From: Paraburkholderia sp. Tr-20389
Lineage (GTDB): Bacteria; Pseudomonadota; Gammaproteobacteria; Burkholderiales; Burkholderiaceae
Direction: 5' to 3'
DNA length: 64,000 bases
Assembly (NCBI RefSeq): GCF_017104565.1
Contig: NZ_JAAGPD010000048.1
Span: forward strand, 19,957-83,956
Part shown: piece after piece, positions 47,544 through 52,314 of the stretch
Position numbering within the stretch: position 1 is the first letter of the stretch
Layout of the letters: each line of letters begins with the position of its first letter
The notes under the pieces: model-generated
What the model saw: only the letters and a program-made list of their open reading frames with translations
Database searches by the model: none
What the model was told of the DNA's origin: nothing
Made by a program: the position numbers and the translations under genes

Positions 47544-47710
47544 TGGAGGCTCCTGGGCGTCGGGATGGAGGGGCGAGCGTCTTGCGCTCACGATCCATGT
47601 TCACGCGTTGCGAGTGGCGCCGGATGCGGACCTGCCTGAAACGCACAGCCGATGGTTCCGCAAAAGTTCGCGGCATATTCACCCGAAAGGTCCGCGTTTT
47701 CCTCGCCCCC

Positions 47711-47716
47711 TATAAT
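47711..47716 (+). promoter_or_regulatory. Perfect -10 box close to the ubiC start
   Basis: TATAAT at 47711-47716 would place transcription start near 47723, next to the ATG at 47724. No clear -35 was found. Confidence 0.3.
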
Positions 47717-47723
47717 GCGGACC

Positions 47724-48416
47724 ATGCCTATCCGTTTCGATGCTGCCGACGCGCACTGGCGCGTCGCGCCCCTCCCAGGTTTCTCGCCCGATCAGAAAGA
47801 CTGGCTCACGCGCGGCGGTTCGCTGACGGCGCACCTGCGCACGCTCGGCGCTGTCGCCGTGCGCGTGACGCGCGAGGCCGTCGACCTGCCGTTCGACGAC
47901 GAATATGGTGCGCTCGGCAGCGCGCCGCGCACGCCCGTGTGGGTGCGTGAAGTGGTGTTATCGGTGGACGGCACGCCGTACGTGGCCGCTCACAGCATCG
48001 TGCCGCTCGCGGCGAGCACGGGTGTCTGGCAGGCGATGCGGCGTCTGCGTACGCGGCCGCTCGCGGAACTGCTGTACAGCGATAGCAGCGTCTCGCGTTC
48101 GTCGCTGGTGAGCCGTCGCGTGACGGCGCGGCATTCACTGTACGGGATCGCTTCGCGCGATATCGAGAACTCACGGCCGCATGCCTTGTTCGCGCGACGC
48201 TCGGTGTTCGAACGCTACGGCGAGCCGTTGATGGTGACGGAAGTCATGCTGCCCGCGTTGTGGGCGCATCTCGCTGCGCGCGATGACGGGTATGCGCGCG
48301 TCCAGCAGCCGGTGCCGCGCGATCACGGTCAGGCGCTCGATCACACGGCATCGCGTGCCGACGTCAACGCGCGGCGCGATGCGAAGGGTGAAGGCAAGCA
48401 TGGAGGCGCACGCTGA
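47724..48416 (+). CDS. ubiC: Chorismate pyruvate-lyase
   Basis: A 230-residue enzyme that splits chorismate into 4-hydroxybenzoate and pyruvate, the first step of ubiquinone synthesis. The fold markers are present: [47 protein letters not shown], a [14 protein letters not shown] segment with [11 protein letters not shown], and [25 protein letters not shown] carrying the catalytic Glu near the end. A disordered tail follows. In-frame ATGs at 47715 and 47724 both precede the family start. The stop overlaps the glycosylase ATG by one base (TGATG). Confidence 0.88.
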
Positions 48417-48889
48417 TGCTGCGCGGCTTTCCACCCGTCGTCGCCGAGAGCACGCATACGCTGATACTCGGCAGCTTTCCGGGTGAAGCGTCGCTCACGG
48501 CGACGCAGTACTACGCGCATCCGCGCAACCAGTTCTGGCGCCTGCTCGGCGCCGTGATCGACGAGCCGCTGCCCGAACTCGATTACCCGACGCGCCTCGA
48601 GCGCGTACTGAAACATGGCATCGGCGTGTGGGATGTGCTGGCCGCGTGCACGCGCGAGGGCAGCCTCGACACGGCGATCCGCAACGCGACGCCGAACGAT
48701 TTCGCGTCGTTCCGCGAGTACGCGCCGCTGCTGAAGAAGGTCTGCTTCAACGGCAAGACGGCGGGGCGCTTTGCGCCCGTCATCGCCGCGGCAGGCTATG
48801 AGACCTTGGTCCTGCCGTCGTCGAGTCCGGCGAACGCGACGCTTTCGTTCGAGCAGAAGTTGGGAGTTTGGCTGCTAGTACTCGATTGA
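48416..48889 (+). CDS. DNA-deoxyinosine/uracil glycosylase family protein with replaced C terminus
   Basis: A 157-residue base-excision glycosylase of the UDG superfamily, family-6-like (hypoxanthine-DNA glycosylase). Motifs: LILGSFPGEASL at the N terminus, YYAHPRNQFWRLLGAVI, GIGVWDVLAACTREGSLD and the C-terminal LPSSSPANATLSF. The last residues here read QKLGVWLLVLD. Two degenerate copies of the same 3' end downstream (50077, 51306) end QKLRLWR.ILT, so the native terminus has been exchanged by insertion of the following cassettes. The catalytic core looks complete. Translation is coupled to ubiC. Confidence 0.85.
   Translation: MLRGFPPVVAESTHTLILGSFPGEASLTATQYYAHPRNQFWRLLGAVIDEPLPELDYPTRLERVLKHGIGVWDVLAACTREGSLDTAIRNATPNDFASFREYAPLLKKVCFNGKTAGRFAPVIAAAGYETLVLPSSSPANATLSFEQKLGVWLLVLD
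48763..48889 (+). repeat. Glycosylase 3'-end repeat, copy A (in the live gene)
   Basis: This is the 3' part of the glycosylase gene that recurs at 50077 and 51306. The identical core includes TTGGTCCTGCCGTC. Similarity fades after the codons for QKL, about 25 bases before the stop. Confidence 0.8.
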
Positions 48890-48947
48890 ATTGAGAGAGC
48901 AGGAAGACATTAGGATTCAATTCGGCCGGAGCCTTGCAGGAGAATGC

Positions 48948-49020
48948 CGAAGTGCGAAGTGCGAAGTGCGAAGTGCGAAGTGCGAAGTGCGAAGTGCGAA
49001 GTGCGAAGTGCGAAGTGCGA
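48948..49020. repeat. Tandem heptamer array, about ten copies of CGAAGTG
   Basis: A perfect 7-base unit repeated about 10.4 times, between the glycosylase stop and the stop of the GIY-YIG gene. The unit length is not a multiple of three, so copy-number changes would shift any frame crossing it. Confidence 0.97.
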
Positions 49021-49068
49021 CGTTTCAGTTACGGGCGTATCGGTTGAGTAGTTCGAAGGGCGGAGAGG

Positions 49069-49926
49069 TCATTTCTTATTCAGCTTGGGGCCTAGTGTTT
49101 CAATGAGCTTGGCTTCAATTTGCAGACGATCGCGCTCATTTTCTGCATTCAATATTGACACTAAGTCCTTGTCCTTATAGTAGCCGCTACTAAAGTGAGC
49201 GGCCATTCTTGTGCGGATGTTGCCGCTCTGCCCAACATACATGATTTCGTCTCGAGTGATGACATATACCGCGCCTGCAGACGGAAGACGTGCTCGCTCT
49301 GAAATATGGATGAAATTGCCAATTGAACGGGCAGGTTGTGCGGCGAATTTCTCCTCGACCAGTAGTGCTTGCAACCGTGCAAGCTCGGCCTGTGCGGTTG
49401 AGTACGTGTTAAGTAGGAGATGGTGATTTTGGCGGATTCGCTCGATCTCGATTTTGGTGGCTTCTATCGCCGGAAGAAATAAACTCTCCCTTTCGTGTGC
49501 AACCGAGCTCAGATACTCGTGAAGCATTGAGCGAATGCTGTTCAGTAGGTTGTGTTCGCGGGTGATATGCTTGTCAAGCGCTGGATTGATCTTGTCTTTC
49601 TCGGCGGCGGTACAACGATTGGCCGACATATATTTGTAGGCTTCGGCATTCGCCTCGATTTCGGCGAGTACGTCATGCATCTTCCCTCTCAATTCCATCC
49701 ACAGGTTACGACTTTCGATTCTCGGCGACGATTCATGTTTCGCGCGATCCTCCGTCCTTTGCGCTTCGCCTAGGGAAAGATCGGTCAGATAGCGATAAGG
49801 AGCGAACGGATTTTGTGTCTTCAAATCCCAATTGCTTACCGTGAAAAGGTGGGTCGCCTCAAATTCACGGAGTTCATTCTCCGTGCGAACGACATCGCGG
49901 TGCGCATGCTGTAGGGTGGTCGACAT
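49069..49926 (-). CDS. GIY-YIG nuclease domain protein with long helical N terminus
   Basis: A 285-residue protein. The C-terminal 68 residues are a GIY-YIG nuclease: GAVYVI (218-223), MYVGQS (229-234), Arg238/Arg240 in NIRTRMAAH, catalytic-type Glu271/Glu276 in QIEAKLIETLGPKLN and the final Asn. Residues 1-200 are mostly helical, with coiled-coil stretches (LHEYLSSVAHERESLFLPAIEATKIEIERI), and match no family I know. Base composition is AT-richer than the flanks, suggesting transfer. It lies between glycosylase-end copies A and B. A defence or mobile-nuclease role is inferred. ATG at 49926, weak ribosome site. Confidence 0.82.
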   Translation of the reverse strand: MSTTLQHAHRDVVRTENELREFEATHLFTVSNWDLKTQNPFAPYRYLTDLSLGEAQRTEDRAKHESSPRIESRNLWMELRGKMHDVLAEIEANAEAYKYMSANRCTAAEKDKINPALDKHITREHNLLNSIRSMLHEYLSSVAHERESLFLPAIEATKIEIERIRQNHHLLLNTYSTAQAELARLQALLVEEKFAAQPARSIGNFIHISERARLPSAGAVYVITRDEIMYVGQSGNIRTRMAAHFSSGYYKDKDLVSILNAENERDRLQIEAKLIETLGPKLNKK

Positions 49927-50076
49927 GGTGATTGTGTGAAGAGGGGGCGTAGGCGAATAAACTGAATCGGCAGTTTCTAGACGGCGATCGGCGCAGCGGT
50001 CGAACTCGGCTCGCGAACTATTCGAGTCGCTACCGATCTCTTCCTGTTCTCGTAAGGTACAGTAGAGACAAACGGT

Positions 50077-50207
50077 GGGGCGTTATGCGCCGATCATCGC
50101 TGCGGCGGGCTACCAGACCTTGGTCCTGCCGTCTTCCAGCCCCCGCCAATGCTATCCTCTTGTCGACCAAAAATTACGCCTGTGGCGCGGTATTCTTACA
50201 TAACGAA
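50077..50207 (+). pseudogene. Glycosylase 3'-end remnant, copy B
   Basis: It aligns without gaps to the live gene from GGGGCG onward (TGCGCC.ATCATCGC, ACCTTGGTCCTGCCGTC), then to copy C through CCCGCCAATGCTATCCTCT and CCAAAAATT. One inserted C and one lost base shift the frame. The repeat runs over the old junction: where copy C has CACATGACGAA, this copy has TACATAACGAA, so the start codon of the next gene is lost. Similarity to copy C is roughly 85% by eye. Confidence 0.85.
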
Positions 50208-50269
50208 GATGTGGTTATACGTTCCACCGGGCGTGTTTCCGCATTGCGTTCACCTTGAGATAATCTCGA

Positions 50270-51226
50270 ATGGCTTGGCTGGAAATGTCACGAACACCCG
50301 ACGGTCGCCCTCAAGATTGGCGGGTCGGGGATTGTTTTTGGTCGCCACGCAAGAATTCTGCGGGTCGACCGTGGGCCTTTTGGGAGACGATGCAAAAGGT
50401 TCGGGCTGGCGATGTTGTGTTCCATCTTTGTGGGGAATCGAATCGGGCTGCGTTCACGGGTTGTTCCATCGCAGCATCAGACTGTATTCTGCTTGACGAG
50501 GGGCCGGCGGGTCCGAGCGAACTCTACAGGGTCGAACTGACGAATTATCAGTCTTTTCCAAGCCCGTTATTGTTAAAAGATGTTTTTACAGTTAACGACA
50601 ATGGGTTACGCGCATACTTTGAATCCAACCGCAACAAGAGTGCGGACAAGGAGCGGCTCTTTTATGTGATTCAAGCGGGGCGTGTCCAATGTCTAAACGG
50701 TGCGTATCTTTCGTTTATAAGCGACGAACTATTGGCCCTGTTATTTGGTGTTGACGCGCGTGTCACGCCGACCAGTTCTAGCGCTGTTGCGGCGCGCGTT
50801 ACTGCGGGCGTGGTGTTGAGTGAAGTCGCTCGTAGGGTAGGGCAGCAGGGATTCGCTCGCAACGTTAAAGCGAATTTTGGCAACTCTTGTTGCTTTCCTG
50901 GTTGCGCCGTAAGTGACCACCGATTTCTGGTCGGCGCGCACATTGCAAAGTGGGCTGATAACCCGGAGCTTCGCGGAGAAACGTCGAATGGACTGTGCTT
51001 ATGTCTCGTGCATGATAAAGCATTTGAATTAGGTGCTTTCACGCTGGATAAGCAGGCCCGTGTCGTTCTCGGCAAAGGCTCCTTCGGTAGCCCGTGGTTG
51101 ACACCACAATTAGAAGCCGCTGCCGGCAAGCCAATCTTGGCAGGCTCGATCGGTCTTTCACTGGAAGCTCTTGCACATCATTGGCGGGCGCACGGTTTCG
51201 CGTTGGATGCGACCGTGGCACTTTGA
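50270..51226 (+). CDS. Probable modification-dependent restriction endonuclease (EVE/PUA-like plus HNH)
   Basis: A 318-residue protein. The N-terminal half (about 8-135) has the pattern of an EVE/PUA-like modified-base reader: DWRVGDCFWSP, RPWAFWETMQKVRAGDVVFHL, AAFTGCSIAASDCI. The C-terminal HNH nuclease (about 200-262) reads NSCCFPGC, VGAHIAKW with His224, then Asn240 and His249 in SNGLCLCLVHDKAFELGAFTLD. This order matches EVE-HNH type IV enzymes such as VcaM4I, which cut DNA with 5-hydroxymethyl- or 5-methylcytosine. No methyltransferase accompanies it. The start ATG 50270 is the first after an in-frame stop; 50285 is possible. Confidence 0.75.
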   Translation: MAWLEMSRTPDGRPQDWRVGDCFWSPRKNSAGRPWAFWETMQKVRAGDVVFHLCGESNRAAFTGCSIAASDCILLDEGPAGPSELYRVELTNYQSFPSPLLLKDVFTVNDNGLRAYFESNRNKSADKERLFYVIQAGRVQCLNGAYLSFISDELLALLFGVDARVTPTSSSAVAARVTAGVVLSEVARRVGQQGFARNVKANFGNSCCFPGCAVSDHRFLVGAHIAKWADNPELRGETSNGLCLCLVHDKAFELGAFTLDKQARVVLGKGSFGSPWLTPQLEAAAGKPILAGSIGLSLEALAHHWRAHGFALDATVAL

Positions 51227-51305
51227 TGTTGGTAGTGTCAGCTGAGATCGTTGATGAATGGTAGCAGTAGTTTGACTACCGTCCGTACGGTTTGGACAGG
51301 ATATC

Positions 51306-51406
51306 GCTACGGGACCCTGGTCCTGCCGTCGTCGAGCCCCGCCAATGCTATCCTCTCGTTCGACCAAAAATTGCGCCTGTGGCGCGACATCCTCACATGA
51401 CGAAAC
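51306..51406 (+). pseudogene. Glycosylase 3' end, copy C (ancestral junction)
   Basis: The frame is intact for GTLVLPSSSPANAILSF then DQKLRLWRDILT and a TGA that overlaps the next ATG as ATGA (51397-51400). This is what the native end of the glycosylase gene and its coupling to the downstream gene should look like. It is cut off from the gene body by the 2.4-kb insertion. Confidence 0.88.
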
Positions 51407-52314
51407 TGATCAAGCGCGCTTCGGCCGAGGCGCGTGCTTTCCGCAGCAAGCCATCCGCAGGCTCGAAGCAGACCATCTCGCGCGCGAAAACCCGCGCTGC
51501 CCGTGACGAAGATGATTTCGCCGACGTCGCCAAGGCGTCGCTGATCGAAGCGCCGCGCAAGCCGCGTTTCGCGCCCGTCACGTTCTCGGAGGAGGGCGGG
51601 GTGCGCTATCTGCACTTCGGCACGGAATGGGTGCAAGGCGCGATGCGTCTGTCGAAGCCCGATCACATCGAACTCGAATACGCCCAGCAGATGATGGCGT
51701 GGCTGCTGTTCCTCGAAACGCCGAAGCGCATCGTGCAGCTCGGCCTCGGCACCGGCTCGCTGACGAAGTTCGCACATCGCTTCCTGAAGCGCGCGCAGGT
51801 CGAAGCCGTCGAACTGAATCCCGCTGTCGTGATCGCCGCGCGCACGATGTTCAGCCTGCCCGCCGACGACGCGCGCCTCACCGTGCGCGAAACCGATGCG
51901 TGGGAGTTCGTCAACGACCGCGCGAATCACGGCACCGTCGGTGCATTGCAGATCGATCTGTATGACGCGACCGCGCGCGGCCCGGTGCTCGACAGCGTCG
52001 CGTTCTATCGCGCGGCGCGCGCGTGTCTGACACAAGCGGGCGTCGTCACCGTCAACCTGTTCGGCGATCATCCGAGCTTCGTGCGCAACATGAAGCGCCT
52101 GAACGAAGCGTTCGACGGACGCGTCGTCGCGCTGCCCGAGGTGCACGACGGCAACCGCATCGCAATCGCGTTCTCGGGTCCCGCCATCGACGTGCCGTTC
52201 GCGCAGTTGCAGGAACGCGCGAAGCTGATCGAGACGCAGCTCAAGCTGCCCGCACGCAAGTGGGTCAAGGGTCTACAGGAATCGACGGGCCAGAACGGCA
52301 CGTTCTCGATCTGA
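51397..52314 (+). CDS. Spermidine synthase-like methyltransferase-fold protein
   Basis: A 305-residue protein of the polyamine-synthase/Rossmann methyltransferase type. After a basic N-terminal stretch (about 1-45) come RIVQLGLGTGSLTKFAHRF (SAM-type loop), VEAVELNPAVVIAARTMFSLP, ALQIDLYDATARGPVLDSVAFYRAARACL and a C-terminal TVNLFGDHPSFVRNMKRL. Many proteins called spermidine synthase by fold have other substrates; the catalytic DXYD-like segment here is IDLYD. The ATG at 51397 lies in ATGA with glycosylase-end copy C, showing past coupling. It now lies 170 bases after the EVE/HNH gene. Confidence 0.85.
   Translation: MTKLIKRASAEARAFRSKPSAGSKQTISRAKTRAARDEDDFADVAKASLIEAPRKPRFAPVTFSEEGGVRYLHFGTEWVQGAMRLSKPDHIELEYAQQMMAWLLFLETPKRIVQLGLGTGSLTKFAHRFLKRAQVEAVELNPAVVIAARTMFSLPADDARLTVRETDAWEFVNDRANHGTVGALQIDLYDATARGPVLDSVAFYRAARACLTQAGVVTVNLFGDHPSFVRNMKRLNEAFDGRVVALPEVHDGNRIAIAFSGPAIDVPFAQLQERAKLIETQLKLPARKWVKGLQESTGQNGTFSI

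Follow-up and report, generated by a model that had tools for sequence, protein, structure and literature searches.

Recurrent insertion at the junction of a DNA-deoxyinosine glycosylase gene and a polyamine aminopropyltransferase-like gene in Paraburkholderia and its relatives

Insertion with long target duplication was reportedly described by Nobusato et al. in 2000. In transformation, homology-facilitated illegitimate recombination leaves one homologous and one non-homologous junction together with a partial duplication. Insertion with long target duplication has often been linked to restriction-modification genes (PMC3031569, PMC1643837), partial duplications via transformation are known (PMC3784515), and so are hotspots without mobility genes that turn over by recombination in flanking core genes (PMC5635113). 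Where no mobility gene is present, long duplications at insertion sites have so far had no settled explanation. Here, a window of 64,000 nucleotides (nt), the whole stretch of DNA analysed, from Paraburkholderia sp. Tr-20389 (GCF_017104565.1, contig NZ_JAAGPD010000048.1) was studied, and all coordinates refer to it. In this window the 3' end of a DNA-deoxyinosine glycosylase gene is present three times upstream of spe, a polyamine aminopropyltransferase-like gene. Our work showed that insertions have indeed occurred repeatedly at the glycosylase-spe junction, and the history of this site is probably best explained by two functions that overlap there, with two rounds of insertion in the window.

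The three copies were found by direct reading and by repeat search, and they surround a GIY-YIG-like and an HNH gene as the original prediction had described. The glycosylase gene (48416..48889, plus strand; NCBIfam TIGR04274, 199.8 bits, cut-off 80) carries copy A as its live 3' end (48758..48889, plus strand), which is followed by the GIY-YIG nuclease-like gene on the minus strand (49069..49926; Pfam GIY-YIG, E 7.4e-4, 20.2 bits, under the cut-off of 22.6). Copy B (50072..50207, plus strand), the HNH endonuclease gene (50270..51226, plus strand; Pfam HNH_2, 2.6e-5, above the cut-off; PADLOC HNH, 8e-20), copy C (51306..51400, plus strand) and spe (51397..52314, plus strand; NCBIfam NF003380, 5.3e-61, 206 bits, under the cut-off of 304) complete the arrangement. 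Copy C, used as query against its own genome, found only these three glycosylase ends at E<=0.001 (7e-47, 5e-23 and 5e-10).

Comparison with relatives whose site is empty pointed to different origins of the copies. Copy B aligned with glycosylase nt 343-478 of the empty-site relative L006 (117/135 identical, two gaps) and extends 4 nt beyond the glycosylase stop, into spe. It is decayed as predicted, with two indels relative to copy C (88/104 identical) and with the spe ATG lost (ATAACG instead of ATGACG). Copy C followed L006 from glycosylase nt 380 onward (139/152 identical including the spe start, zero gaps), agreed with the listed near empty-site relatives at 96-99 of 105 nt, and retains both the reading frame and the ATGA junction. 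Differently, copy A leaves the native sequence after about nt 360-404 (change point 404 vs L006, 362 vs L008). Within its last 54 nt, 20 bases are absent from all 12 near relatives, and its alanine codon is GCG, so that the TGCTAT motif is missing. Copies B and C thus match the recipient target as seen in empty-site relatives, and the last codons of copy A do not. Judged from sequence comparison, the window glycosylase gene is a chimera of a native 5' part and a foreign end, and the end in copy A looks imported. The native sequence of about 100 nt shared by copies B and C is what a long target duplication flanking the HNH gene would leave, and copy A, with tens of native nt in common with copy B and then a foreign end, is as expected after import of a gene end plus the GIY-YIG gene. 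The prediction had offered either target duplication or an imported end; a duplication of about 100 bp would account for copies B and C and an imported end for copy A.

The locus was gathered from 116 of 118 genus genomes (G012 and G071 were left out) and from 80 named loci, and identical glycosylase genes were merged, giving 170 loci. A window-like allele was present at 123 loci (76 empty, 44 occupied and 3 with spe not reached). A second allele at the same place, about 44-54% identical, was present at 47 loci (2 empty, 41 occupied and 4 with spe not reached); both of its "empty" loci have a 30-nt gap, and some short gaps in that group may be ordinary spacers. Insert length ranged from 112 to 11974 nt. 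Among the window-like empty loci, 70/76 overlap spe as ATGA, and the glycosylase end NA(M/I)LSFDQKLxxWR(D/E)IL, like copy C, was found in 74/76, while the ends in occupied loci were varied. The empty allele in relatives therefore corresponds to one repeat copy, that of copy C type, and two further expectations of the original prediction, that empty sites end like copy C and that other strains carry different cargo, agreed with these data.

A spe tree was built with FastTree for 154 of the 170 loci, the others being without usable spe. At least 16 occupancy changes were required on these 154 rows, 7 of them forced by starred branches, and the window was the one occupied row in a starred set of 13 rows, the other 12 of which were empty. 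On the same tree the second allele at this place required at least 10 allele changes, which suggests that the glycosylase gene itself has been swapped between lineages.

Glycosylase pieces were detected in 34/85 inserts (blastx, E<=1e-4). The best match of pieces adjoining spe was an empty-type gene in 14/14, and that of internal pieces was a gene of an occupied or unresolved locus in 27/29, some of the internal matches being weak (27-43% identity). The two exceptions were window copy B and, in L114, half of a terminal remnant that is split; the former is expected if the first insertion left copy B behind as the native end. This pattern fits a history in which new cargo would be added beside the glycosylase and older ends shifted downstream, and the displaced ends would then form a layered record of insertions.

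The retained end before spe carries a promoter-like motif. TGCTATNCT was found at most 75 nt upstream of spe in 43/44 occupied loci with the window allele and in 31/36 with the second allele, and in only 8/31461 background windows. In the window, the extended -10-like motif TGCTATCCT (51346..51354, plus strand) lies 51 nt upstream of the spe ATG, where it presumably functions, and it is kept in copy B at 50150-50158. In empty loci the motif is written in glycosylase codons, and its alanine codon was GCT in 76/76 of them, compared with 2/44 occupied genes; at other alanine codons GCT was used in 71/1515 (empty) and 34/816 (occupied), i.e. 4-5%. Of the two occupied genes with GCT, L058 still contains the motif, as its foreign part begins further along the gene, and in L089 the GCT codon stands without the motif. 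Codon variation at the 3' end was 0.159 in empty genes compared with 0.356 upstream, and 0.429 in occupied genes compared with 0.333 upstream, i.e. not reduced. We infer that TGCTATNCT is an extended -10 promoter element of spe. The retained end is probably kept as it carries this promoter-like element, and the duplication was probably selected because one end serves the protein and the other serves spe. No paper on this locus, or on a duplication selected in such a way, was found in the literature; two features of the retained end before spe are new here, the promoter-like TGCTATNCT and a hairpin present in most lineages.

Hairpins in the spe leader were evaluated against shuffled sequences. 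Stems of at least 5 bp occurred in 95% of the leaders at occupied loci outside Burkholderia (20 distinct sequences; 42% in shuffles) and in 84% of the second group (57% in shuffles), and in 0/18 distinct Burkholderia leaders (27% in shuffles). For 29 leaders, picked by eye as one type from 54 outside Burkholderia, a choice that favours structure, 91% of pair cells hold and 7 two-sided cells were counted compared with 3.6 in shuffles (7/500 as high), while two of the five measures, pairs with two-sided changes and pair types, were not above shuffles. In the window, a 7-bp stem with a 3-nt loop (51371..51387, plus strand) may be a leader structure or part of a minus-strand terminator. Terminator-like hairpins with a T tract were also observed on the minus strand in copy C (51373-51385) and copy B (50176-50188), and the number of minus-strand terminator-like sites in the region, 2, was below that in shuffles (3.4). 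Part of the second-allele group carries another hairpin, and a different strong hairpin of GCAAATGCACC TGCATTTGC type replaces the usual one at 11 loci (L116, L171, L183, L185, L186, L187, L189, L192, L194, L197 and L200).

Based on these observations, an insertion site with overlapping functions is proposed. The last glycosylase codons would double as a promoter-like element of spe. Since two functions would overlap at the junction, an insertion would survive only where the glycosylase still has a functional end of some kind and spe its old one, so that imported DNA would arrive as a glycosylase 3' end plus cargo, make the glycosylase chimeric and leave the native end as the spe leader, the role that copy C appears to play now. 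Such an overlap would explain why duplications are what survives. For the window, a two-round history is well supported and fits best, with the HNH gene as the presumed first and the GIY-YIG gene as the presumed second insertion. In the first round, the HNH gene would have entered with a target duplication of about 100 bp, leaving copy B on the left and copy C on the right; in the second, the GIY-YIG gene would have entered with the foreign end of copy A and displaced copy B. The left join may have been made by RecA-type recombination inside the glycosylase gene and the right join by a further step. The two successive insertions of the original prediction are in keeping with both the relatives and the copy types.

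Several points weigh against this explanation. A search of 145 genus genomes gave no donor for end A: of the 81 genomes with a match, the best extend no more than 5 nt beyond the stop codon. Copies B and C differ by 15%, and their common origin in one duplication is thus presumed. The motif is absent from 5/36 second-allele occupied loci, and no sigma-70-type match was obtained in the region. In the spe tree, 71/151 inner branches were weak, and gain and loss could not be oriented. G274, which lies outside the tree and is nearest to the window's clade by the glycosylase 5' part, is occupied by a ParA-like cassette; with this other cargo, the window's clade is not uniformly empty, and a second insertion probably exists at G274. 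Among 38 outgroup stretches surveyed, two that are fully or almost fused, L249 and L261, lack the motif.

At E<=1e-20, the GIY-YIG gene was found only as the window's own copy among 145 genus genomes, and the HNH gene in 3/145 including the window, the other two having no glycosylase piece in their 3.9-kb loci. Residues 148-267 of the HNH protein match PDB 6yex (E 1.8e-5), an entry given in the VcaM4I paper, according to which the linker and HNH domain of VcaM4I span residues 148-309 (PMC7897488). The linker and HNH region thus appears VcaM4I-like and resembles that of a modification-dependent restriction enzyme. The gene had been predicted to encode an EVE/HNH endonuclease. Its HNH part was supported by HNH_2 and 6yex, and the N-terminal EVE (PUA-like) domain was not confirmed, as residues 1-147 had no family match in Pfam, NCBIfam or PADLOC; the predicted structure of the protein was unusable (predicted local distance difference test score 36). 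Cargo at other loci was varied and mostly ordinary, including alkyl sulfatase, PNPOx, fimbrial genes, PhoD phosphatase and a ParA-like ATPase (match below cut-off); some toxin-antitoxin genes were also seen, and a YhcG-type nuclease once. Pfam covered 120/126 representative cargo proteins in three sets, two of which are represented by their leading 25 families out of 84 and 52, respectively; these sets include proteins from loci with spe not reached, and 20 proteins were scanned singly. PADLOC covered 40/126 representative proteins and the two of the window, and on the 40 it returned almost only PDC-S02 candidate-family models, one member matching each. Judged by the families in these incomplete lists, the hotspot of defence genes originally suggested is not supported.

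Two kinds of cargo recurred. The gene for the ParA-like ATPase, which usually has 231 aa and matches Pfam CbiA below the cut-off, was present in 12 loci (L078, L079, L081, L084, L120, L142, L150, L161, L162, L164, L167 and L168) and is about 81-99% identical between species. In L076, L084 and L190, a nucleotidyltransferase-domain gene is paired with a gene of 100-144 aa without Pfam family, and at a guess the pair could be a toxin-antitoxin system. In the window itself, ubiC (chorismate lyase; 47652..48416, plus strand; Pfam Chor_lyase, 1.6e-22) is the upstream neighbour of the glycosylase gene, and the guanine-plus-cytosine content is 0.50-0.55 in the insert and 0.63-0.70 in the flanks. The interval from copy A to the GIY-YIG gene holds a perfect 7-bp tandem repeat, CGAAGTG, of 10.4 copies (48948-49020), which is possibly a slippage tract or a junction scar.

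In relatives, precise junctions were recognised, and they bear on the alternative of a site-specific mobile cassette family. The glycosylase changes from native to foreign at nt 123 (L114), 125 (L120), 125 (L142) and 126 (L122), and in L055, where mismatches become dense at nt 130, at a fitted nt 149. Further along the gene, the mismatch rates of L114, L120, L142 and L055, but not that of L122, are raised by a 3-nt indel. Many displaced copies start at residue 38, AAYCRGTTYTGG, directly after TGTCAAAnnGnnCAAAAY, and in L114, L116 and L076 the displaced copy resembles its own lineage most closely from the junction onward, the junction sequence of L114 itself having diverged. The conserved 21-bp sequence TGTCAAAnnGnnCAAAAYaYC, new here and seen before displaced glycosylase copies in relatives and not in the window, looks like the end of a site-specific cassette. 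To its left lie unrelated cargos, which in many genomes include the ParA-like cassette. Across 398 family genomes the longer pattern occurred 20 times, adjoining glycosylase sequence in 18 cases (16 by blastx, 2 by reading), and across 143 genus genomes a shorter form occurred 10 times, with 6 of these occurrences at the glycosylase locus; genome-wide the sequence is nearly restricted to this locus, in several genera. On this alternative, circles carrying a glycosylase 3' part plus cargo would recombine at the NQFW codons (glycosylase nt 112-123) and restore the gene each time, with a recombinase unrecognised or supplied in trans; the circular form would join the 21-bp sequence to AAYCAGTTCTGG, and the window copies would be diverged products. 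The left switch does cluster at nt 123-126, although L120 and L142 may share one event. However, the 21-bp sequence occurs in just 11/85 inserts at no more than one substitution and is absent from L055, L122 and L142. The window lacks it as well (best score -0.5, under the shuffle mean of 0.7, members shown scoring 30-35), the likeness of TTTGGACAGGATATC before copy C having been discarded as chance, and its junctions lie elsewhere. No recombinase was found either. This account is possible but doubtful. That Burkholderiaceae hold integrase-less cassettes, composed of the glycosylase 3' two-thirds, unrelated cargo and the 21-bp end, which insert precisely at the NQFW active-site codons, restore the gene each time and leave stacked displaced ends through a new or host-supplied recombinase, is put forward only tentatively. 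The junction sequence in relatives would then hint at a mode of gene movement into a single fixed codon that has so far gone unrecognised.

If the occupied state were ancestral, empty loci would result from homologous deletion between the glycosylase end and the downstream copy; direct repeats would excise cleanly, and occupied loci exist in several genera. Against this unlikely course of events, L240, an outgroup from another genus, shows the fused state and has the motif within its coding end, the rows nearest to the window in the tree are empty, and terminal copies are little decayed in some Paraburkholderia, with 226/248 nt (L055) and 124/125 nt (L142) identical including the spe start. 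A restored target gene with a displaced fragment is also the signature of islands at tRNA genes (PMC4383910), and integrase-borne islands may have targeted the glycosylase gene and since lost their integrases. This is very unlikely: searches with PF00589 and rve in the own genome gave no match at the window locus, consistent with the integrase-free site first noted; in 12/12 genomes the Phage_integrase (PF00589) genes, among the matches listed, were on other contigs or at distances above about 50 kb; and 14 own-genome phmmer queries gave zero matches to six-frame open reading frames of 85 inserts, three of them (L273, L278, L285) differing in length from the open frames found and possibly being in wrong frames. 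The retained motif would moreover be explained by spe and not by an attachment site, and the finding of no tyrosine recombinase at the locus speaks for an insertion site with overlapping functions. Homing enzymes occur in both the GIY-YIG and the HNH folds, and the live end A is unlike the native end, as would be expected if one of the two enzymes had cut an empty site and been copied in with flanking DNA. Such free-standing homing is highly improbable, since neither cargo gene of the window clusters with cargo of any other locus, the two HNH relatives are without a glycosylase piece, and the HNH protein resembles a modification-dependent restriction enzyme.

Compared with known systems, the locus is like insertion with long target duplication in that cargo lies between long, variable direct repeats of neighbouring sequence without a mobility gene. 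It differs in its stand-alone GIY-YIG-like and HNH genes and in the mostly ordinary families at other loci, mostly not restriction-modification genes; moreover, a selective reason for the repeat is visible here, and many insertions bring a foreign gene end. As in homology-facilitated illegitimate recombination, one homologous and one non-homologous junction and a partial duplication can be read from the sequence here, but some relatives have a recurrent, precise right junction. Genomic islands at tRNA genes, as described in the Islander report, likewise split their target, restore its end and mark their far end by the displaced fragment (PMC4383910), whereas the target here is protein-coding, about 120 codons are restored in relatives and no integrase was found. 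Cargo turnover, no integrase found and recombination in a flanking core gene are shared with the hotspots without mobility genes (PMC5635113); unlike in those hotspots, the recombining gene here is chimeric, leaves end fragments and overlaps the promoter-like element of the next gene.

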